Under the pieces are notes generated by a model that saw only the letters and a program-made list of their open reading frames with translations, did not search any database and had not been told where the DNA came from. The position numbers and the translations under genes were made by a program. DNA of 64,000 nucleotides, taken from assembly GCF_031583025.1 (NCBI RefSeq), contig NZ_CP134062.1:1488001-1552000 (forward strand), written 5' to 3'. Position 1 is the first letter of the stretch. Each line of letters begins with the position of its first letter. This stretch comes from Mycobacterium sp. Z3061 (lineage in GTDB: Bacteria > Actinomycetota > Actinomycetes > Mycobacteriales > Mycobacteriaceae). This document shows positions 17,147 to 27,830 of this stretch, in pieces.

Positions 17147-17737
17147 TCAGGCAGTCGGGGCGTCGGCCCACGGGACCCGGCAGGCATCGCCCGAATTGAA
17201 GCCCTGCTCGGTGATCCCGAGGGCCGAATACATGCGCGCGCGCATGTTCTCGACGCCGATCTGATAGGTCAGCTCGATCACTCCGGCGTCGCCGAAGCGG
17301 ACCCGCAGATCCTCGACCTGCTCGTCGGTGACCGCATGCGGGTCGGTGGTCATCGCGTCGGCATAGGCGATCGCGGCGCGCTCGTCGTCGGAGTAAAGAG
17401 GTGAAGTCGTGTATCCATCTATGTCCCTAAGCCGCTCTGTGTCCAGGCCGTCCAGCCGCTGCAACATCTCTCCGAAGTCCACACACCACGAGCAGCCGAC
17501 AGTGCGCGCGGTCCAGAACACCGCCAGTTCGCGCACGTTGGCCGGCAGGGTCCGCGAGGCGTTCTGCAGCATCGTTTCGTGGACGGCGTTGGCGACCAGC
17601 AGCCGCGGATGGTGAGCGGCGACGGTGAACGGTTCGGGCACCTCGCCGAAGCGGCGTTTGGCGACCCGGTACATGGTGCGCACCAGCAGTCCGGCGCGCT
17701 TGGGAGGCAGGGGTTGAATGCGTGTTTTCTGCGTCAT
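17147..17737 (-). CDS. carboxymuconolactone decarboxylase/AhpD-like protein
   Basis: 196-residue all-alpha protein of the AhpD/CMD superfamily. The diagnostic segment TVGCSWCVDFGEML holds the C82-x-x-C85 pair, and the family's downstream region LYSDDERAAIAYADAMT is also present. AhpD-type members pass electrons to peroxiredoxins; others are hydrolases or decarboxylases, so the reaction is open. The start is ATG 17737; the frame is open much further upstream but that part reads across the divergent gene. It ends flush against the convergent Met-rich protein gene. Confidence 0.85.
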   Translation of the reverse strand: MTQKTRIQPLPPKRAGLLVRTMYRVAKRRFGEVPEPFTVAAHHPRLLVANAVHETMLQNASRTLPANVRELAVFWTARTVGCSWCVDFGEMLQRLDGLDTERLRDIDGYTTSPLYSDDERAAIAYADAMTTDPHAVTDEQVEDLRVRFGDAGVIELTYQIGVENMRARMYSALGITEQGFNSGDACRVPWADAPTA

Positions 17738-18394: not shown

Positions 18395-19238
18395 ACAAGG
18401 CCTGCAGATCGTCGTCGTCGAGACCGTCGAATACCCGCAAAGCCAATGCGTCAGTGGTGGATTCGAGCTGGGACTTGAGGTCACGCCCGTCCGGCGTCAA
18501 CGAGCCATCGGAATCGAGCAACCCGCGGTCGGCGAGGCTCTGGCGGCAGGCATCCCACTCGTCGTCGTCGTAGTGGCGGGAACGCTTCATGAACTCCTCG
18601 GAGACCGCGCTCGCCGCGGTATGGAAGACGTTCGACTCCCGCCCGGAGATCCCCGCGGCCACCAGCGCCGCGACGTGCCCGTCGCCGCGGTGCTCGCGCA
18701 GCAGGGTGGTCGCGTTCCAGAGCGCGGCCACCGGATCGGAGGGCACCGGCAACGCGACGTTGGCCGCGAACAGCGAGCGGCCGTCCACCGGTGCGGACTG
18801 CGCGGCTCGACACGCCAATTCTGCTGCGGTGCTGACGTTTTCGTCGTCGGTGACGCCGCATCGGCGCAAGGCCGCGACGGTGGAGTCCTGGCGGGCGCGT
18901 AATGCGCTGTCCGGACCGGCGATCTGCCACGCGGCCGGCAGCGACTTGGCCACCCGGGCGTGTGCGAAGTTGTAGAACACCGCTGTCACCACCTGCGGCG
19001 GCACCGCGCCCAGCGGCGCCGAACGTGCGGCGAAGTACCCCATCCAAAATCCGCGATAACCCAGGCCGTCCAACGCCGTTCGTACCTCGGGCGCGAAATA
19101 GGTCAGGGCGTGGATCGGCTCGAAGCGGTCATAGCACTGCCGGGCGAGCGCGGGGGTTCGTTGCACCAGTTCAGCTAAACATCTGCGCCGACCGTCGTTC
19201 AGTCTCCCGTGCGGTTCAACAGAATTTCGAATGGCCAT
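18306..19238 (-). CDS. SCO6745-family protein
   Basis: 310-residue cytoplasmic protein of the actinobacterial SCO6745/MarR-like helix-turn-helix family. The characteristic start region FEPIHALTYFAPEVRTALDG is present, followed by YRGFWMGYFAARSAPLGAV and YNFAHARVAKSLPAAW. A C-terminal winged-helix-like region reads DEWDACRQSLADRGLLDSDG. ATG 19238 lies inside the 3' end of the upstream kinase gene (40-bp overlap), so the two are probably co-transcribed. A shorter start cannot be excluded. Members of this family are of unknown function, often near stress or salvage genes. The gene's 3' end overlaps the convergent condensation-like frame by 89 bp. Confidence 0.8.
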   Translation of the reverse strand: MAIRNSVEPHGRLNDGRRRCLAELVQRTPALARQCYDRFEPIHALTYFAPEVRTALDGLGYRGFWMGYFAARSAPLGAVPPQVVTAVFYNFAHARVAKSLPAAWQIAGPDSALRARQDSTVAALRRCGVTDDENVSTAAELACRAAQSAPVDGRSLFAANVALPVPSDPVAALWNATTLLREHRGDGHVAALVAAGISGRESNVFHTAASAVSEEFMKRSRHYDDDEWDACRQSLADRGLLDSDGSLTPDGRDLKSQLESTTDALALRVFDGLDDDDLQALFSALTPVARTVIAAGDVPAATPMSARLDF

Positions 19239-21106
19239 GAATGGCACTTGGTCCCAGGCCCGGCCTCGTCGTACCCGTGCCCGGTGAGGGTCGGTATCGG
19301 GTCTTGTGGCGGTGTGGGAAGCGGCAGGGTGGAGGTCCAGGTGTCGATCGAGGACCCGCCGGACGGGCACGGGCTGTCGAATACCTCATTGCGGGTCCAG
19401 GCGCCATTGCCGAAAACCAACGTCTCGCCGCCCCCCTTCTCGTTGGTCAATCGGCTGATGCATCGATCCCCGGTCCGGAGGCAATCGGTGCGAACGGTCT
19501 CCGTGTGTGTGAACTTGTTACCGTTCGGATAGGTGACCTGTTGCTTATAGCTGCCGCGCAGCGCCGCAGCCGGAGATATCACCCGGCGCGCGAGCGTCGT
19601 CGGGTCGGCTAACCGCGATATGTCGGCGTCCGCGGTTCTGGTCAATGTTGCGGTGCGTTTGCTGGCGCAGCCATTGGCCGTGATTTGTGTGAACTCACCC
19701 CCCATGGATCCGTTGGGCTGCGGGTGCAGCACGATGACATTCCAAACCTCGTCGTCCTCACGGGCCCTGCACTTCCCCCGCGTGGTGCTGACTGCGACCC
19801 AGTTTCCGTCGGCGTCGTCGAAGACCAGATCCTTAACGGCATAGCGGCCACCGGTTACTGCCGTCGCGACGCAGCCGTTGGCGCTGCATGCCGAACGCAG
19901 TTTCCAAGACTCCGAGTACGCCGCGTCCCCAGCACTGCCGAGGGGCGATCCGTCCCACATCAATCGCTGGCCAGCGGCCGCGGTGAACGTCCCGGTGAAC
20001 GGGCCGGTGTTGGGAAGTGCCGTGGGCGCTGCCGGAGTCGCGCCGCTCGGTGACGTGCCGTGGTCGTCCGAGTTGGTCAGTGCGATTGTCGCGACGGCGA
20101 CGACGGCCAGCACGGCTGCCGTGCTGCCCAGGGCGATCAGCCTTCCTTTGCGCGACTTAGCCGGCCCGGGTGCGTTCGGAAAGCGCGAAACGGGCGCGTG
20201 CTGGGTAGGCCCGGTAAGAGTGCCGTCCTGCGGCGACGGCGGGGCAAGGGGCGCCACCGCGGTCGCAGGCAGCGTATTCGGGCCGATCGCCGGTGCGTTG
20301 ACAGCGGCCCGGGCCGCCCGTGTGAGCTCACGGGTGGTGGCGTATCTGTCGTCGGGGTTCTTCGCCATGCCTCTGGCCACGACCGTGTCGAGTTCGGATG
20401 GCGTGTCCGGAAGTCGGTCCGACGGGCGCGGCGGGGGAAGGGCGAGATGGCCACCGACCTGCTGTTCCAGACTGTCGCCCGGGAAAGGCTGGCTGCCGGT
20501 CAGGCATTCGTAGAGCACGCAGGTCAGGGCGTAGATGTCGGCGCGCGCGTCGGTCTGTCCGGTGGAGACCCGCTCCGGAGCCAGATAAGCCCAGGTGCCG
20601 ATCACGCCGGCGGTGCTGGTCAGCCCGGTCTGGTTGGCGGCGCGGGCAATGCCGAAGTCGATCAGGTAGGCGAAGTCGTCGTCGGTGACCAGGATGTTGG
20701 ACGGCTTGACGTCTCGGTGTACCAAACCGGCCTGGTGGGCGGCGTGCAGCGCTGCGCCGATCTGATCGATGATCGCAACTGCTCGGTCCGCTGATATCGC
20801 GCCGTCGCGCAGGATGCTGTGCAGGTCGCGACCCTTGATCAACCTCATCGTCACGTAGAGCCGCCCGTCGATCTCGCCGAAGTCGTAGATCGGCACGACG
20901 TGTGGTTCGTCGAGCGCCGCGGCCGATCGCGCCTCGCGGCGGAACCGTTCCTGGAATACCGCGTCGCCAGCGAACTGGACGGGCAGCACCTTCAGGGCGA
21001 CGACGCGCTCGGTGGCCGTGTCATAGGCTCGCCACACTTCGCCCATGCCACCCCGGCCGAGTAGGTCCAGCAACTCATAACGCCCGAACGGCGTCCCGTG
21101 CTCCAT
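19199..21106 (-). CDS. membrane Ser/Thr protein kinase with Cys-rich ectodomain
   Basis: 635-residue PknF/PknJ-like receptor kinase. The kinase domain (about 10-270) has all catalytic elements: GRGGMGEV, VALK (Lys39), HRDVKPSN (Asp132), DFG (150-152), an activation loop with Thr/Ser candidates at 160-165 and APE at 176-178. A single membrane helix lies at about 324-345. The outer domain (about 350-635) carries eight cysteines (for example SACSANGC and DCLRTGDRC), enough for four disulfides. ATG 21106 is the start. The gene is divergent from the tandem-kinase gene and overlaps the SCO6745 gene. The ligand is unknown. Confidence 0.93.
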   Translation of the reverse strand: MEHGTPFGRYELLDLLGRGGMGEVWRAYDTATERVVALKVLPVQFAGDAVFQERFRREARSAAALDEPHVVPIYDFGEIDGRLYVTMRLIKGRDLHSILRDGAISADRAVAIIDQIGAALHAAHQAGLVHRDVKPSNILVTDDDFAYLIDFGIARAANQTGLTSTAGVIGTWAYLAPERVSTGQTDARADIYALTCVLYECLTGSQPFPGDSLEQQVGGHLALPPPRPSDRLPDTPSELDTVVARGMAKNPDDRYATTRELTRAARAAVNAPAIGPNTLPATAVAPLAPPSPQDGTLTGPTQHAPVSRFPNAPGPAKSRKGRLIALGSTAAVLAVVAVATIALTNSDDHGTSPSGATPAAPTALPNTGPFTGTFTAAAGQRLMWDGSPLGSAGDAAYSESWKLRSACSANGCVATAVTGGRYAVKDLVFDDADGNWVAVSTTRGKCRAREDDEVWNVIVLHPQPNGSMGGEFTQITANGCASKRTATLTRTADADISRLADPTTLARRVISPAAALRGSYKQQVTYPNGNKFTHTETVRTDCLRTGDRCISRLTNEKGGGETLVFGNGAWTRNEVFDSPCPSGGSSIDTWTSTLPLPTPPQDPIPTLTGHGYDEAGPGTKCHSWPFEILLNRTGD

Positions 21107-21187: not shown

Positions 21188-21195
21188 GGAGGAGG
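21188..21195 (+). promoter_or_regulatory. ribosome binding site of the tandem kinase
   Basis: GGAGGAGG lies just upstream of a GTG at 21200, with the GGAGG core seven bases from the start. This decides for initiation at 21200 and not at the ATG at 21164, which has no comparable site. Confidence 0.7.
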
Positions 21196-21199
21196 CTTG

Positions 21200-23686
21200 G
21201 TGACGGGGGACGTGGAAGGCGAAGTCTTCGGGCGCTACCGACTGCTCGAAGTGCTCCGCTGGGGCGGCATCGGCACCGTCTATCGGGCCCGGGACACCAT
21301 GATGACCCGGGAAGTGGCCATCAAGCTGATGCCCGCCGAGCCGCCGTATCAGGACCGGTTCCGGCAGGAAGTCGCTGTCGCGGCCCGCCTGCACAACCCG
21401 AACATCATCCCGATCTACGAGGCCGGCGAGATCGACGGCCGCCTTTACCTGGTGATGCCCGTCGTCGACGGTCTCGACCTGCAGACCATGCTGCACCGCG
21501 ACGGGCCGATCAGCCCGAAGCTGGCCGTGCGGGTGATCGAACAGGCCGCCGCGGCGCTGGAGGCCGGCCACGGTTGCGGGCTGACACACGGTGATGTCAG
21601 GGCCGCGAACATCTTCGTGGTCGGCGGCGAGTTCGTGTACCTGCTCGATTTCGGTGCCACCGCCGACAACTCGGGCCCGGGTGACCCGGGCGGCGACATC
21701 CACGCCCTGACCGGCGTGCTCTACGAGTGCCTCACCGGCCGGCCGGCAGACCCCGCCGGCCAGGCGCCCAAGCCGAGCGACGTCCACTTCACCATCCCGG
21801 CCGGATTCGACGAGGTCGTGGCGCGCGGCCTGGCCGATGATCCCGACAACCGCTACCAAACAGCCCGCGAGTTGGCCGTCGCCGCCCGAGAGGCGCTGGC
21901 GCCGGTGGCGACGCCGGTGGTCATGGCCGAGGAAACGGACTTCGGGCGGTACCGGCTGTTCGAATTGCTCGGCGCCGGCGGCATGGGCTCGGTGTACCGA
22001 GCGCACGACACCTTGCTGGGGCGTGACGTGGCGGTCAAGGTGTTGCGCACCGAACTGGCCACCGAGCCCGGCTACCAGGAGCGGTTCCGGCGCGAGGCGT
22101 ATGCCGCCGGCAGGTTGGCCAACCCGCACATCATCCCGATCTACGAGGCCGGTGAGATCGACGGGCGCCTGTATCTGGTGATGCCGATTGTCGACGGCGT
22201 CGACCTGCACCACGTGCTCGACCAGGCCGGGCCGATGAGCCCGCAGCAGGCGGTGCGAGTGGTCGAACAGGTCGCCGTGGCGCTGGACGCGGCGCACAAG
22301 TCGGGCCTGGTGCATCGCGATGTGAAGCCGTCGAACCTGCTGATGGTCGGCGAAGAATTCGTGTATCTCATCGACTTCGGGCTGGTGCACGAAGCAACTG
22401 CGTCGCGCTTGACGCGCACCGACATCGCCCCGGGAAGTCCGGCGTACATGGCCCCGGAGCGGTTCAGGTCCGGGACGATCGCCGACGCTCGCTCCGACGT
22501 GTACTCGCTGGCCTGTGTGCTCTACGAGTGCCTGACCGGGCGGCCGCCCTTCCGCGGTGGCGGGGTCGAGGGGTTGACCGCCGCGCATCTGTTCGACGAG
22601 CCACCCAAGCCGAGCAGCTCCGACCCCGCGCTGCCCGCCGGGTTCGACGACGTGATCGCTCGCGGCATGGCCAAGCACCCCGATGAGCGCTACCAATCCG
22701 CACAGGAGCTGGCCGTCGCGGCCCGCGCGGCCCTGGCCACGGAACCGGCACCGCCGTCCGCGGTCCCCGACGCGCTGCATTCGACGCAGGATGCCCGCAC
22801 CGTCCCGTCGCCGTCACGCGGCCGTCGCCGTGCCCTGACCGTCGGCGCGGTCGCCGCCGTGGTGCTGCTGATCGCCGCAGTCCTGGCGCTCACCAACGGA
22901 TTTCCGTTTCGCTCCGGGACCCCGCAGACCCAGATCGTCTTGCCGTTCACCGGGCTCGACGGGCCCCTGGGTGTAGCGGTCGACATCAGCGGCAACGTCT
23001 ACGTCACCGATACCGGCCACAACCGGGTGCTGAAACTCCCCGCAGACTCGACCACCCAGACCGTCGAACCGTTCGCAGACCTGAATCATCCGGGCGGCAT
23101 AGCCATCGACGAGCAGGGCAATGTGGTGATCACCGAGCCGACGAACAACCGGGTGCTGGAACTGGCGCCGGGAGCCGGCCAGACGGTGCTGCCGTTGACC
23201 GATCTCGCGCGCCCTGCGGGGGTGGCCCTGTACCGACGCAACCCCGAGACGGACCGGATCGTCGTCGCCGACCTGGGGCACGACAGAGTGCTGGCACTGA
23301 ACGGGGCACATTCCGCGCAGCGGGAATTGCCTTTCACCGGCCTTGACGATCCCGCGGGTGTGGCGGTGGGCAGCGACGGCGGCCTGTTCGTCATCGACAG
23401 CGCGAACGAGCGGATACTCAAGCTGCCCTGGACGGCGTCGGTGGCGACCGTGTTGCCGTACGCCGTCGGGCACCCCGATTTCGTCGCGGTCGACGCCGCC
23501 GGCGACCTCTACGTGACCGACAGCCACGCCAACCGCGTCATGAAGCTGACGAAGGACACGACAACGTCAATCACGTTGCCGTTCAACGGCCTCAAGGGAC
23601 CGCAGGGTGTCGCGGTGGACTCCGCCGGGAACGTCTACGTCGCCGACGCCGGCAACAATCGCGTGCTCAAGCTGCCGCCCAACTAG
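21200..23686 (+). CDS. tandem pseudokinase-kinase with NHL propeller sensor
   Basis: 828-residue PknD-like receptor with a duplicated kinase region. Domain 1 (about 10-232) is a pseudokinase: the glycine loop has lost its first Gly (RWGGIG), HRD is HGD (131 Gly), the catalytic-loop Lys is Arg134, and the activation segment is about 25 residues shorter, with no APE. Lys42, Asp132 and DFG150-152 remain. Domain 2 (about 249-512) is intact: GAGGMG, Lys280, HRDVKPSN (Asp374), DFG392-394, Thr405/Thr407, APE418-420. A membrane helix (about 545-565) leads to six NHL repeats (about 580-828), a six-bladed propeller outside the cell. Both kinase copies share IIPIYEAGEIDGRLYLVMP, pointing to intragenic duplication. 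Confidence 0.93.
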   Translation: MTGDVEGEVFGRYRLLEVLRWGGIGTVYRARDTMMTREVAIKLMPAEPPYQDRFRQEVAVAARLHNPNIIPIYEAGEIDGRLYLVMPVVDGLDLQTMLHRDGPISPKLAVRVIEQAAAALEAGHGCGLTHGDVRAANIFVVGGEFVYLLDFGATADNSGPGDPGGDIHALTGVLYECLTGRPADPAGQAPKPSDVHFTIPAGFDEVVARGLADDPDNRYQTARELAVAAREALAPVATPVVMAEETDFGRYRLFELLGAGGMGSVYRAHDTLLGRDVAVKVLRTELATEPGYQERFRREAYAAGRLANPHIIPIYEAGEIDGRLYLVMPIVDGVDLHHVLDQAGPMSPQQAVRVVEQVAVALDAAHKSGLVHRDVKPSNLLMVGEEFVYLIDFGLVHEATASRLTRTDIAPGSPAYMAPERFRSGTIADARSDVYSLACVLYECLTGRPPFRGGGVEGLTAAHLFDEPPKPSSSDPALPAGFDDVIARGMAKHPDERYQSAQELAVAARAALATEPAPPSAVPDALHSTQDARTVPSPSRGRRRALTVGAVAAVVLLIAAVLALTNGFPFRSGTPQTQIVLPFTGLDGPLGVAVDISGNVYVTDTGHNRVLKLPADSTTQTVEPFADLNHPGGIAIDEQGNVVITEPTNNRVLELAPGAGQTVLPLTDLARPAGVALYRRNPETDRIVVADLGHDRVLALNGAHSAQRELPFTGLDDPAGVAVGSDGGLFVIDSANERILKLPWTASVATVLPYAVGHPDFVAVDAAGDLYVTDSHANRVMKLTKDTTTSITLPFNGLKGPQGVAVDSAGNVYVADAGNNRVLKLPPN

Positions 23687-23762: not shown

Positions 23763-24557
23763 TCAGCGGGAGAACATCACCGCGCGCTTGACTTCCTGGA
23801 TCGCCTTGGTCACCTGGATGCCGCGCGGACAGGACTCGGTGCAGTTGAACGTGGTACGGCACCGCCACACCCCGTCCACCTCGTTGAGGATGTCGAGGCG
23901 CTGCGCGGCGGCCTCGTCTCGGCTGTCGAAGATGAACCGGTGCGCGTTGACGATCGCGGCCGGGCCGAAATAGCTGCCCTCGTACCAGAACACCGGACAG
24001 CTGGTGGTGCAGCAGGCGCACAGGATGCACTTGGTGGTGTCGTCGTAGCGGGCGCGGTCGGTGGGGCTCTGAATGCGTTCGCGGGTAGGCGGATTGCCGG
24101 TGGTGATCAGGTACGGCTTGATCGCCCGGTAGGCGTCGAAGAACGGCTCCATGTCGACCACGAGGTCTTTTTCCACCGGCAGCCCACGGATCGGTTCGAT
24201 CGTGACGGTGAGTTTCTTGCCGGGCTTTTTCGGAAGCAGGTCGCGCATCAACACCTTGCAGGCCAACCGGTTCAGCCCGTTGATCCGCATGGCATCGGAG
24301 CCGCACACGCCGTGTGCGCACGAGCGCCGGAAGGTCAGCGTCCCGTCCAGGTAGCCCTTGACGTAGAGCAGCAGGTTCAGCAGCCGGTCACTCGGCAGAC
24401 AGGGCACCCGGAAGCTCTGCCAGCCGCCGGTGGCCGCGAACTTGTCGGGGTCGTCGGGGTTGAAGCGGGCGATCTTCAGGGTCACCATCACCGCGCCCTC
24501 GGGAACCGGCGGCAGCGGCGGGTCCTTGACTACCTCGACTTCTGCATCGGCGGTCAT
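23763..24557 (-). CDS. sdhB: succinate dehydrogenase iron-sulfur subunit
   Basis: 264-residue electron-transfer subunit of complex II, on the cytoplasmic face of the membrane. The N-terminal ferredoxin domain carries the [2Fe-2S] ligands in SCAHGVCGSDAM and the later LACKVL. The C-terminal domain carries the [4Fe-4S]/[3Fe-4S] cysteines in CILCACCTTSCPVFW and CTESCPRGIQ. The ATG at 24557 shares one base with the sdhA stop (TGATG), so the two are translationally coupled. It is the last gene of sdhCDAB (Rv3319 equivalent). Confidence 0.97.
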   Translation of the reverse strand: MTADAEVEVVKDPPLPPVPEGAVMVTLKIARFNPDDPDKFAATGGWQSFRVPCLPSDRLLNLLLYVKGYLDGTLTFRRSCAHGVCGSDAMRINGLNRLACKVLMRDLLPKKPGKKLTVTIEPIRGLPVEKDLVVDMEPFFDAYRAIKPYLITTGNPPTRERIQSPTDRARYDDTTKCILCACCTTSCPVFWYEGSYFGPAAIVNAHRFIFDSRDEAAAQRLDILNEVDGVWRCRTTFNCTESCPRGIQVTKAIQEVKRAVMFSR

Positions 24558-26311
24558 CAGTACTTCCGCTCCTTCGGCTCGTAGCGGGTCTGCACGACGG
24601 GTTTGAAGTCCAGCCTGATGTCGCTGAGCAGGTCGGTGCCCTCCTTGTACGCCATGGTGTGCCGCATGTAGTTGACGTCGTCGCGGTTGGGGTAGTCCTC
24701 GCGGGCGTGGCCGCCGCGGGATTCCTTGCGGTTCAGCGCACCCACCACGGTGACCTCGGCCAGCTCCAGCAGGAAGCCGAGCTCGATGGCCTCCAGCAGG
24801 TCGCTGTTGAAACGCTTTCCCTTGTCGTGCACGGTGATTCGCGAGTACCGCTCCTTGAGGGCATGGATGTCGGTGAGTGCCTGCTTGAGCGTCTCCTCGG
24901 TGCGGAACACCGCGGCGTTGTTGTCCATCGACTGCTGCAGGGCGCTGCGGATGTCAGCGACGCGCTCGTTGCCGTGCTCGGACAGGATGTCGCGCACCCA
25001 GCCGACCACCATCGCCGCCGGGTCCGGCGGCATGTCGGCGAAATCGTGGCTCTGCGCGTAGCGGGCGGCGGCGATGCCGGCGCGGCGGCCGAAGACGTTG
25101 ATGTCCAGCAGCGAGTTGGTGCCCAGCCGGTTGGCGCCGTGCACCGAGACACACGCGCACTCCCCGGCGGCGAACAGGCCGGGCACGGTGTTGGTGTTGT
25201 CCCGCAACACCTGTCCGCTGACCGTGGTCGGGATGCCGCCCATCACGTAGTGGCAGGTGGGATAGACCGGCACCAGCTCTTTGACCGGGTCCACCCCGAG
25301 GTAGGTGCGGGCGAACTCGGTGATATCCGGCAGCTTGGCCTCCAGCACGTCTTCACCGAGGTGACGGACGTCGATGTAGACGTAATCCTTGTTGGGTCCA
25401 GCGCCGCGGCCCTCGAGCACTTCGAGCACCATCGAGCGGGCGACGATGTCGCGCGGTGCCAGGTCGACGATGGTCGGGGCGTAGCGCTCCATGAACCGTT
25501 CGCCGTCGGCGTTGAGCAACCGGCCGCCCTCACCGCGCACGGCTTCGGAGATCAGGATGCCCAGGCCGGCCAGCCCGGTCGGGTGGAACTGGTGAAACTC
25601 CATGTCCTCCAACGGAAGTCCCTTGCGGAACACGATGCCGATGCCGTCGCCGGTCAGGGTGTGCGCATTGGAGGTGGTCTTGTACATGCGGCCGGAGCCG
25701 CCGGTGGCCAGCACGATCGCCTTGGCGTGGAAGACGTGGATGGTGCCGGTGGCCAGTTCGTAGGCCACCACTCCGGTGGCCACCGGGCCGGTCGGGGTCT
25801 GGGTGAGAGCCAGGTCCAAAGCGTAGAACTCATTGAAGAACTGGACGTCGTGCTTGACGCAGTTCTGATAGAGCGTCTGCAGGATCATGTGGCCGGTGCG
25901 GTCGGCCGCATAGCAGGCCCGCCTTACCGGGGCCTTCCCGTGGTCGCGGGTGTGGCCGCCGAACCGGCGCTGGTCGATGCGGCCCTCGGGGGTGCGGTTG
26001 AACGGCATCCCCATCTTCTCCAGGTCCAGGACGGCGTCGATCGCCTCCTTGCACATGATCTCCACGGCGTCCTGGTCGGCGAGATAGTCGCCGCCCTTGA
26101 CGGTGTCGAAGGTGTGCCACTCCCAGTTGTCCTCTTCGACGTTGGCCAGTGCCGCGCACATGCCGCCCTGTGCCGCGCCGGTGTGGCTGCGGGTCGGGTA
26201 GAGCTTGGTGAGAACCGCGGTGCGGACCTGCGGGCCCGCCTCCACCGCGGCACGCATGCCGGCACCGCCGGCGCCGACGATCACCACGTCGTATCGGTGT
26301 TGCTCGATCAC
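24557..26311 (-). CDS. sdhA: succinate dehydrogenase flavoprotein subunit
   Basis: 584-residue catalytic subunit of complex II, oxidising succinate to fumarate with covalently bound FAD. Visible features are the FAD-binding DVVIVGAGGAGMRAAVEA, the flavinylation-site motif SHTGAAQGGMCAAL, the substrate/active-site QFHPTGLAG and RGEGGRLLN, and NRLGTNSLLDINVFGRRAG near the second FAD site. It is cytoplasmic, docked to SdhCD. It starts 28 bp after sdhD and is coupled to sdhB. Confidence 0.97.
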   Translation of the reverse strand: MIEQHRYDVVIVGAGGAGMRAAVEAGPQVRTAVLTKLYPTRSHTGAAQGGMCAALANVEEDNWEWHTFDTVKGGDYLADQDAVEIMCKEAIDAVLDLEKMGMPFNRTPEGRIDQRRFGGHTRDHGKAPVRRACYAADRTGHMILQTLYQNCVKHDVQFFNEFYALDLALTQTPTGPVATGVVAYELATGTIHVFHAKAIVLATGGSGRMYKTTSNAHTLTGDGIGIVFRKGLPLEDMEFHQFHPTGLAGLGILISEAVRGEGGRLLNADGERFMERYAPTIVDLAPRDIVARSMVLEVLEGRGAGPNKDYVYIDVRHLGEDVLEAKLPDITEFARTYLGVDPVKELVPVYPTCHYVMGGIPTTVSGQVLRDNTNTVPGLFAAGECACVSVHGANRLGTNSLLDINVFGRRAGIAAARYAQSHDFADMPPDPAAMVVGWVRDILSEHGNERVADIRSALQQSMDNNAAVFRTEETLKQALTDIHALKERYSRITVHDKGKRFNSDLLEAIELGFLLELAEVTVVGALNRKESRGGHAREDYPNRDDVNYMRHTMAYKEGTDLLSDIRLDFKPVVQTRYEPKERKY

Positions 26312-26339
26312 CGCACGCCTTTCATGAGAATGTGGTCTT

Positions 26340-26819
26340 TCACGAAATGTTCGGGTTGAACGTCATCAACACGTAGGTCCCGAGCATCAGCGTGAACACC
26401 ATCGACACCGTCAACAACGCGTTCAGCCAGAACCGGGTGATGTTCTTGCGGCTGTAGTCGTCGATGATGGTGCGAATGCCGTTGCCGCCGTGCAACTGTG
26501 CCAGCCACAGCAGCAGCAGGTCCCACACCTGCCAGAACGGTGAGGCCCACCGCTGTGCGACGTAGTTGAAGTCGATGCGATACACGCCGTTGTCCCACAT
26601 CAGCATGATGAACAGGTGGCCGATGGCCAGGAACACCAGCACGATGCCGGAGAACCGCATGAACAACCACGCGAACTTCTCGAAGTTCGGGATGCCCGCG
26701 CGGCGGCGCGGCGAGCGCGGGTTGTCCAGGCTGGCGGGGCGGTAGTAGCTGCGCTGCTTCACCGGTGCGGTCTGGCTTGGCCCTTTTTGAAGACCGAGTT
26801 GCAGGTCGGGGCTGCTCAT
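26340..26819 (-). CDS. sdhD: succinate dehydrogenase membrane subunit SdhD
   Basis: 159-residue membrane anchor of complex II. Three hydrophobic segments are visible (about residues 52-72, 96-112 and 130-152), including IVLVFLAIGHLFIMLMW, whose His can ligate haem, and AQLHGGNGIRTIIDDYSR, a motif typical of actinobacterial SdhD. The ATG at 26819 overlaps the sdhC stop as ATGA. It works with SdhC to bind quinone and pass electrons into the membrane. Confidence 0.93.
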   Translation of the reverse strand: MSSPDLQLGLQKGPSQTAPVKQRSYYRPASLDNPRSPRRRAGIPNFEKFAWLFMRFSGIVLVFLAIGHLFIMLMWDNGVYRIDFNYVAQRWASPFWQVWDLLLLWLAQLHGGNGIRTIIDDYSRKNITRFWLNALLTVSMVFTLMLGTYVLMTFNPNIS

Positions 26820-27268
26820 TTGAAGTGCTCCCACATATGGATTCCGGTGACCACGCCGGCCATCACCAGCATCACCAGGAACGTCACGGCGACGATCCAT
26901 AACATCCGACGCTGATAGCGCGGACCTTCGGACCAGAAGTCGATCAGGATGACCCGGATCCCGTTGAGCGCGTGGAATCCCACCGCGGCCACCAGTCCGT
27001 ACTCCATCAAGCCGACAATCGGGGTCTTGTAGTCGGCGAGCACGGTGTTGTAGGCCTGCGGGCTGACCCGCAGCACCGCGGAGTCCAGGACGTGTACGAA
27101 CAGGAAGAAGAAGATCGTGGCGCCGCTGATGCGGTGCAGCACCCACGCCCACATGCCGGGGTCTCCGCGGTAGAGGGTCCTGGGCGGCTTGCGTTTGCGT
27201 GACGATTCCGGCGCCGGCGGATCCGTGGTTGTCGTCTTCAGAACCACCTGACAGCTCACCTCATTCAC
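26816..27268 (-). CDS. sdhC: succinate dehydrogenase cytochrome b subunit SdhC
   Basis: 150-residue membrane anchor and first gene of the sdhCDAB operon. The signature HRISGATIFFFLFVHVLD, FHALNGIRVILIDFW and three membrane helices identify it. The basic N-terminus contains a Pro/Lys stretch (SSRKRKPPRTLYRGDPGM). ATG 27268 is the first start; a GTG nine codons later is possible. The 160-bp gap to the divergent cdd gene must contain promoters for both operons. Confidence 0.93.
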   Translation of the reverse strand: MNEVSCQVVLKTTTTDPPAPESSRKRKPPRTLYRGDPGMWAWVLHRISGATIFFFLFVHVLDSAVLRVSPQAYNTVLADYKTPIVGLMEYGLVAAVGFHALNGIRVILIDFWSEGPRYQRRMLWIVAVTFLVMLVMAGVVTGIHMWEHFK

Positions 27269-27428
27269 GCCGTTGGGAATCCGGCGGATAGGCGGCTATC
27301 GCCGGGCAATCGCGAGCTTAGCCCGGTAAACGTTGCCCGCGGTAGCGCCACGATGTGATCCATATCCCGTGTCACAGCCGGGCTAGGGTGGTGTGGTTCA
27401 GCCAGCACAACGCCGAGCGGGGTCGCGA

Positions 27429-27830
27429 ATGTCGGAAGTCGATTGGAAGGTGCTGCGGGACAAGGCAATTGAAGCTTCTGTCGGAGCCTATGCGCCGTAT
27501 TCACGGTTCCGGGTCGGTGCGGCGGCGTTGGTTGACGACGGCCGGATCGTGACCGGCTGCAATGTGGAGAATGTCTCATATGGTCTTGGTCTCTGTGCCG
27601 AATGCGGCGTCGTGTGCGCGCTGCATTCCACCGGGGGCGGTCGGTTGCGGGCGCTGGCGTGCGTGGACTCCGGCGGTGCGCCGTTGATGCCGTGCGGGAG
27701 ATGCCGTCAGGTGCTGCTCGAGCACGGCGGCCCGGAGATGTTGATCGACCATCCCGCCGGTGCGCGGGCACTCGGGGAGCTGCTGCCCGACGCCTTCGGT
27801 CCCGACGATCTTTTTCGGGACTCCCGTTGA
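27429..27830 (+). CDS. cdd: cytidine deaminase
   Basis: 133-residue zinc enzyme converting (deoxy)cytidine to (deoxy)uridine. The catalytic motif CAECGVVCAL (with the proton-shuttling Glu) and the second zinc motif PCGRCRQVL are intact, as is the nucleoside-binding GCNVENVSYGL. The start is ATG 27429. Its stop overlaps the TTG start of deoA (TTGA), opening the cdd-deoA-add salvage operon (Rv3315c-Rv3313c). Confidence 0.96.
   Translation: MSEVDWKVLRDKAIEASVGAYAPYSRFRVGAAALVDDGRIVTGCNVENVSYGLGLCAECGVVCALHSTGGGRLRALACVDSGGAPLMPCGRCRQVLLEHGGPEMLIDHPAGARALGELLPDAFGPDDLFRDSR

Follow-up and report, generated by a model that had tools for sequence, protein, structure and literature searches.

The stretch analysed here, the window, comprises 64,000 nucleotides of Mycobacterium sp. 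Z3061 (positions 1,488,001-1,552,000 of a 6.79 Mb single-contig genome). At 21200..23686 on its forward strand lies a gene with a GTG start that encodes an 828-residue tandem receptor kinase, with two Hanks kinase domains, a membrane helix and a six-blade NHL propeller. Genomes are labelled with G numbers (the window's genome is G000) and compared loci with L numbers, and the suffix a marks one copy, as in G108a. The parts of the gene are as follows.

21200..23686, forward strand: whole gene, degenerate kinase, kinase, membrane helix and NHL propeller, 828 amino acids (translation, Pfam)
21188..21195, forward strand: GGAGGAGG, likely ribosome binding site for GTG 21200 (sequence)
21227..21895, forward strand: domain 1, degenerate kinase, residues 10-232 (Pfam, AlphaFold2 model)
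21587..21595, forward strand: H130-G131-D132 where HRD is expected in domain 1 (alignment)
21647..21655, forward strand: D150-F151-G152, kept in domain 1 (alignment)
21656..21694, forward strand: 13-residue remnant of the activation segment, which has 38 residues in domain 2 (alignment)
21896..21940, forward strand: interdomain linker, residues 233-247 (translation; low predicted local distance difference test score, pLDDT, at model residues 235-241)
21941..22735, forward strand: domain 2, complete Ser/Thr kinase, residues 248-512 (Pfam, alignments)
22835..22891, forward strand: membrane helix, residues ~546-564 (hydropathy)
22940..23683, forward strand: six NHL blades, presumed outer sensor domain, residues 581-828 (Pfam, 1rwi match, blade pattern)

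GTG 21200 is preferred as the start over TTG 21164 because GGAGGAGG sits just 5' of it. The frame, the coordinates and every residue listed in an initial annotation of the gene were verified in the sequence. Pfam recognises two Pkinase (PF00069) stretches and NHL repeats (PF01436), the only run of high hydropathy (residues 546-564) falls between the kinases and the sensor, and the sensor contains six blade motifs by a pattern of our own and also matches chain 1rwi. A Hanks kinase, one membrane helix and a six-blade NHL sensor with a 1rwi match make the protein similar to PknD of Mycobacterium tuberculosis. As the initial annotation had claimed, however, PknD types have one kinase domain, which is what each frame holds in 19 of 19 other NHL-type loci (L020-L038), while the window protein adds a degenerate one before it. 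PknB and PknE have an activation segment and HRD in our alignments and no tandem.

In JAK and TYK2 (JH2-JH1) a degenerate kinase also precedes an active kinase in one chain, and the gene had been described as JAK-like. The domain order bears out that comparison, but the rest does not: the window protein has no Pfam match to FERM or SH2 at E 0.001, its domain 2 is of the Ser/Thr type, and it has its own membrane helix and sensor. The sequence places the tandem protein among PknD-like receptors, with one domain added, and outside the JAKs.

The two kinase domains of the window protein are 58% identical. Domain 1 has Arg20 at the first Gly of the loop, HGD (130-132) for HRD and Arg134 at the catalytic-loop Lys, and its DFG is separated from the helix-F Asp by 13 residues versus 38 in domain 2, so that 25 residues are gone, APE included. 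It retains Lys42, Asp132, Asn137 and an intact DFG (150-152) with Asp150. Domain 2 is canonical throughout (Gly258, Lys280, Glu299, H372-R373-D374, Lys376, Asn379, DFG 392-394, APE 418-420). Alignment thus upholds all the lesions that had been listed for domain 1, along with the completeness of domain 2. The name pseudokinase, which had also been applied to domain 1, fares less evenly. Under the three-motif definition (loss of the beta-3 Lys, the HRD Asp or the DFG Asp) the window's domain 1 falls outside because Lys42, Asp132 and Asp150 remain; for this domain, the term is something we infer. The absent activation segment is the heavier lesion. HGD alone denotes the non-RD state and does not imply inactivity: EFR, a non-RD receptor, has a cytoplasmic domain described as an active kinase in vitro (PMC8463890). 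EFR is also similar in that its non-RD kinase domain is described as having a catalysis-independent role (PMC8463890), but it has an activation loop and works with a separate coreceptor.

A profile of the tandem region, built from 12 proteins, was searched against 396 genomes drawn as a sample of the larger genus. It found 20 tandem proteins in 17 genomes, the window's included; the 19 further proteins with the same domain order are spread over 16 genomes besides it, including one from the window's own species, and three genomes carry two copies each. The matches are free of internal stops (0/20). A hydrophobic helix is seen in 20/20, six blade motifs in 18/20 (G236 has five, and G059 two, its contig ending inside the gene), and Pfam kinase and NHL matches in 12/12 of the proteins scanned. 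The architecture is thus neither confined to a single assembly nor absent elsewhere, which answers the search that the initial annotation had proposed. An assembly or annotation artefact, for which we found nothing in favour, is refuted by the same arrangement in 16 other genomes, besides the single-contig state of the window's own genome, and retains next to no probability. The architecture in the window is real.

Occurrence of the tandem receptor outside the genus was considered and rejected. Draws from the family (201 genomes) and the order (200 genomes), which overlap with the genus draw in genomes, contained it only in the window's own genome and only in G000 and G143, respectively; the long frame of G442 in the order draw has one kinase domain. 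Among 60 relatives of G236, three genomes have the tandem, all already found. When the whole protein was searched against 198 genomes, with scoring limited to the few best candidates of each, the matches listed included tandem proteins from 11 genomes. Of the single-kinase matches there that extend over the sensor, the best-scoring is 47% identical; others reach up to 51%. No tandem NHL protein was recognised among the best 80 loci from two general peptide patterns, which are mostly distant kinases. Spread on plasmids was considered and rejected: six plasmid records match, all at <60% identity and none covering 80% of the protein.

The lesions of domain 1 recur, in varying combinations, across the 20 tandem proteins. 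The first loop Gly is gone from all of them (Arg in 19, Gln in one), and the HRD Arg from 19 (HGD 16, HAD 2, HTD 1), being retained only in G236. From DFG to the helix-F Asp there are 11-20 residues in 16 of the 20, 36 in three and 37 in G236; the same segment in domain 2 has 38-41 residues. The proposed check on conservation of the deletion therefore returns a segment amputated in 16/20. The catalytic-loop Lys is retained in 12 and gone from eight, and the beta-3 Lys is retained in 16 and is Arg in four, including G236. The HxD Asp and catalytic-loop Asn are retained in 20/20 and the DFG Asp in 19/20 (NFG in G359), so that five of the 20 lack one of the three core motifs and are three-motif pseudokinases. 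Domain 2 retains its Gly, Lys, HRD and catalytic-loop Lys in 20/20, and its DFG reads DFE in G031. By these residues none of the 20 domain 1 copies is a standard kinase, and the lineages arrived there by different routes. That of G236 (L172), with HRD, catalytic-loop Lys, DFG and APE present and Arg at the beta-3 Lys, has departed from the standard in its own way.

The substrate-binding part that is gone in 16 of the 20 bears on whether domain 1 might still be catalytic, through slow autophosphorylation, ATP hydrolysis or some other transfer. The kept HxD Asp, catalytic-loop Asn, DFG Asp and, in most, beta-3 Lys are what such activity would use, but with the catalytic-loop Lys missing from eight and the first loop Gly from all, we regard it as improbable.

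A tree was built from the two domains of each of 13 tandem proteins plus 26 of the 41 kinase domains that the window's genome yielded. All domain 1 sequences (100/99) and all domain 2 sequences (96/97) group as a single clade each, and the two clades are sisters (100/97). (The window's genome has a large Ser/Thr kinase set, with 44 Pkinase family matches, 42 of them above the cut-off.) Because the clades are sisters, one intragenic duplication is older than the sampled lineages, and the claim of an intragenic origin is borne out. Over these 13 lineages, which are the 20 proteins minus near-copies, mean pairwise identity is 64% for domain 1 versus 79% for domain 2, and each domain 1 shares 55-60% identity with its own domain 2. 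Only in the window's lineage is domain 1 closest to its own domain 2 (1/13), so there is little sign of conversion between the copies. The initial annotation had pointed to long identical segments shared by the copies; these do not show a recent duplication. The block IIPIYEAGEIDGRLYLVMP is identical in both copies, and 60 of the 66 bases around it are identical as well; it is a slowly changing stretch, and the long identical segments reflect constraint, not recency. Recent duplication or marked gene conversion is ruled out by the sister clades and the 13-lineage identities.

Loss of the activation segment happened more than once. On a domain 1 tree built without the columns of the lesion traits, whose deepest forks are weakly supported, G236 is sister (100/100) to a segment-less clade, and the segment trait must have changed three times or more. 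A single origin of the loss was rejected: holding the 16 amputated domains together lowers the log-likelihood by 56.65 (p of the approximately unbiased test, p-AU, 1e-5). Holding together the 19 domains without the HRD Arg is rejected less strongly (p-AU 0.001). The constrained groups were fixed by the trait table, and the decision to test them was made after the tree was seen. Since regain of 18-27 residues is unlikely, we read the changes as three independent losses of the segment. One base can restore Arg, so for the HRD trait we count two changes at the least.

This reading would have the segment of G236 inherited. It shares SW-Y-APER or near with the other kept domain 1 segments and is identical to them at 13/36 positions, compared with 9/37 for its own domain 2. 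Its 15/37 identity to domain 2 of G000 weakens the inherited reading.

Domain 1 is under constraint. The ratio of nonsynonymous to synonymous substitution rates (dN/dS) was calculated by the NG86 method over 10 pairs, which share species and are not independent and include two with a cut sensor. It spans 0.04-0.48 in domain 1 and 0.05-0.20 in domain 2, compared with 0.22-1.15 in the linker plus membrane helix and 0.04-0.57 in the sensor. Domain 1 lies below 0.5 and below the linker in 10/10 pairs, above domain 2 in 9/10 and below the sensor in 5/10. The earlier claim that its decay is selective and not random agrees with these values. An AlphaFold2 model of domain 1, from an alignment of 49 rows taken from the window and the scan of the best 80 loci, has pLDDT 92.2 and a predicted template modelling score (pTM) of 0.89, places helix F about ten residues past DFG, and has PknB and PknE as its nearest solved folds. 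Low dN/dS thus marks domain 1 as constrained, and the confident kinase-fold model predicts that it folds.

A functionless, decaying remnant would account for lesions that pile up and vary between lineages, but it sits poorly with the dN/dS values, the uninterrupted frames and the well-folded prediction. Among the matches listed from the 198 genomes there is also no relative of comparable identity with domain 2 and NHL that lacks domain 1. We judge this explanation very improbable.

Because domain 1 is kept in the relatives found while its segment is repeatedly cut, it probably controls the working kinase and does not itself act on targets. The initial annotation had suggested that domain 1 may regulate domain 2 or recruit substrates, and a regulatory role is still the best reading of these sequences. 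For how ligand binding outside the cell switches mycobacterial receptor kinases, N-lobe dimerisation is a leading idea (PMC3601408); N-lobe dimers are described there as activating PknB and PknD allosterically, and a back-to-back dimer form is also described in PMC6333020. We propose that the kinase domain of a PknD-like NHL receptor kinase was duplicated once in tandem, leaving domain 2 as the working Ser/Thr kinase. Domain 1 would have become a partner that folds and probably binds nucleotide but has stopped accepting substrates, since both its activation segment and the HRD Arg, which normally senses the phosphorylation of that segment, are gone. It could then supply domain 2 with a built-in N-lobe partner, either within one chain or between the chains of a receptor pair; a back-to-back contact, as in PknB and PknD activation, would hold domain 2 in the active shape, and the propeller would set when this contact forms. 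By analogy with PknB and PknD, that domain 1 is a non-phosphorylating N-lobe partner of domain 2 in a contact of this type is our tentative preference, held at somewhat under an even chance. Its lack of phosphotransfer, the geometry of the contact, activation over inhibition and the role of the propeller are parts of it that we infer.

The positions equivalent to PknB Arg10, Leu33 and Asp76, numbered from our alignment and inspected after the idea had formed, read Arg, Met and Glu in domain 1 of 20/20 proteins. In domain 2 they read Arg in 20, Leu in 19 or Met in one, and Glu or Asp in 20. Twelve columns are invariant in domain 1 yet variable in domain 2 over the 13 lineages, and two of these are contact positions (35 and 74).

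Several points weigh against a built-in activating partner. The contact residues are suggestive only, because outgroup kinases have Arg at the first position in 6/6 and Met at the second in 3/6. By our estimate, a linker of about 15 residues may leave too little reach for the two domains of a single chain to meet back to back. The window's domain 1 still has its three core catalytic residues, and the segment of G236 is closer to domain 2 of G000 than to the other kept domain 1 segments, which leaves some chance that it was copied from elsewhere. The tandem AlphaFold2 model yields no domain arrangement, because its pTM is 0.62 and its alignment barely covers domain 1. Of the structure prediction proposed earlier, then, the fold of domain 1 was obtained and the interface was not. 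Finally, our results do not separate activation from inhibition.

This last point leaves room for domain 1 as a brake, like JH2 on JH1 in JAK, holding domain 2 inactive until the sensor is engaged. The domain order is shared with JAK, and both domains occur in all 20 proteins, although these were found with a tandem profile. Against a brake stand the silence of the results on sign and the tandem model without a reliable arrangement; in a structure comparison of that model, none of the 50 matches listed is a two-domain chain and all cover domain 2 alone. A brake seems to us unlikely. Domain 1 could instead be a docking or scaffold platform for substrates or a partner, leaving domain 2 activity untouched. 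Its faster evolution relative to domain 2 in 9/10 pairs would fit changing partners, and such or structural roles are described or proposed for bacterial pseudokinases (PMC12599244). No obvious partner gene co-travels, however, the constant neighbours among seven window genes tested being the sdh genes with cdd and the gene at 17147, and N-lobe contact positions are among the columns kept in domain 1; we consider a scaffold rather unlikely too.

If the non-phosphorylating N-lobe partner is the correct reading, the activating partner would have been built into the chain and its segment would then have been useless or harmful, to be removed independently in at least three lineages by recurrent selection; this extension we find somewhat doubtful. 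A natural chain with both partners, one of them segment-less, would allow allostery to be told apart from catalysis. That related lineages lost the same part repeatedly also gives a natural series from kinase towards non-kinase in one bacterial gene family.

The closest mycobacterial parallel to a lost segment is MviN (Rv3910) of family ActPs3, a kinase-like domain with an activation-loop deletion (PMC12599244). ActPs3 is described as having lost all three catalytic motifs, with the MviN domain deficient in ATP binding and forming a back-to-back dimer via residues that have counterparts in other kinases (PMC12599244). Domain 1 of the tandem protein is not ActPs3, because its catalytic residues are mostly kept, and it is followed by a complete kinase in the same chain. 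Among curated families, StpK7 (NF052427) scores 560.2 bits, under its cut-off of 900, and the Stk1 family PASTA kinase (NF033483) scores 461.2 bits in three stretches, above its cut-off of 450. We do not take the latter as membership, because two kinase copies add up and no PASTA was found among the 13 Pfam families listed for the protein, which has NHL instead.

The literature searched (titles and abstract openings, with little subscription content) contained no bacterial tandem or pseudokinase-kinase receptor, and neither 'tandem' nor 'NHL' appears in the main text of a review of bacterial pseudokinase families (PMC12599244). Tandem kinases are not confined to the NHL tandem family, because L084 and L144 also carry two. 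Both are among the best 80 loci. L084, from a Deltaproteobacteria metagenome-assembled genome (MAG), has two kinases with core motifs. In L144:1001-2788, from a Planctomycetota MAG, a kinase-like domain in which neither beta-3 Lys nor DFG was recognised is followed by a complete kinase and a hydrophobic stretch. The L144 protein is perhaps a separate pseudokinase-kinase protein, at a guess of separate origin in a distant lineage.

The tandem gene has a largely constant setting. Seven window genes were tested against 16 regions fetched from other genomes. The gene faces sdhB-sdhA-sdhD-sdhC and cdd (23763-27830) in the window and in 12/16 of these regions, and all 12 of the sdh-type regions (12/12) have a homologue of the 17147 gene on the opposite side. 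In the exceptions, G108a, G211a, G007a and G236 (the last on a 14 kb contig), none of the tested neighbours matched, and these four form one domain 1 clade (100/100). They are a second tandem clade off the sdh locus, L185, L196, L197 and L190 in the same order; three of the four genomes carry a further tandem protein, which in G108 and G211 is found at the sdh locus. We also hand-picked, from 379 tandem-less genomes, 24 in few contigs. No tandem-like protein lies within the stored 1.5 kb either side of sdhB in any of these 24, and the 17147 homologue is inside that stretch in 11; in L201, L207 and L217 it is about 160 bases or less from sdhB, which makes an empty site.

On the reverse strand at 19199-21106, pointing away from the tandem gene, lies a second receptor kinase with one complete kinase domain. 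The PknI dimerisation domain family matches it weakly, at 30.6 bits against a cut-off of 35. This kinase is also present in the same-species genome G006, but in the 16 fetched regions its only matches fell in the tandem gene. The window's sdhA DNA is 90% identical to sdhA of a Mycobacterium angelicum genome (locus L086).
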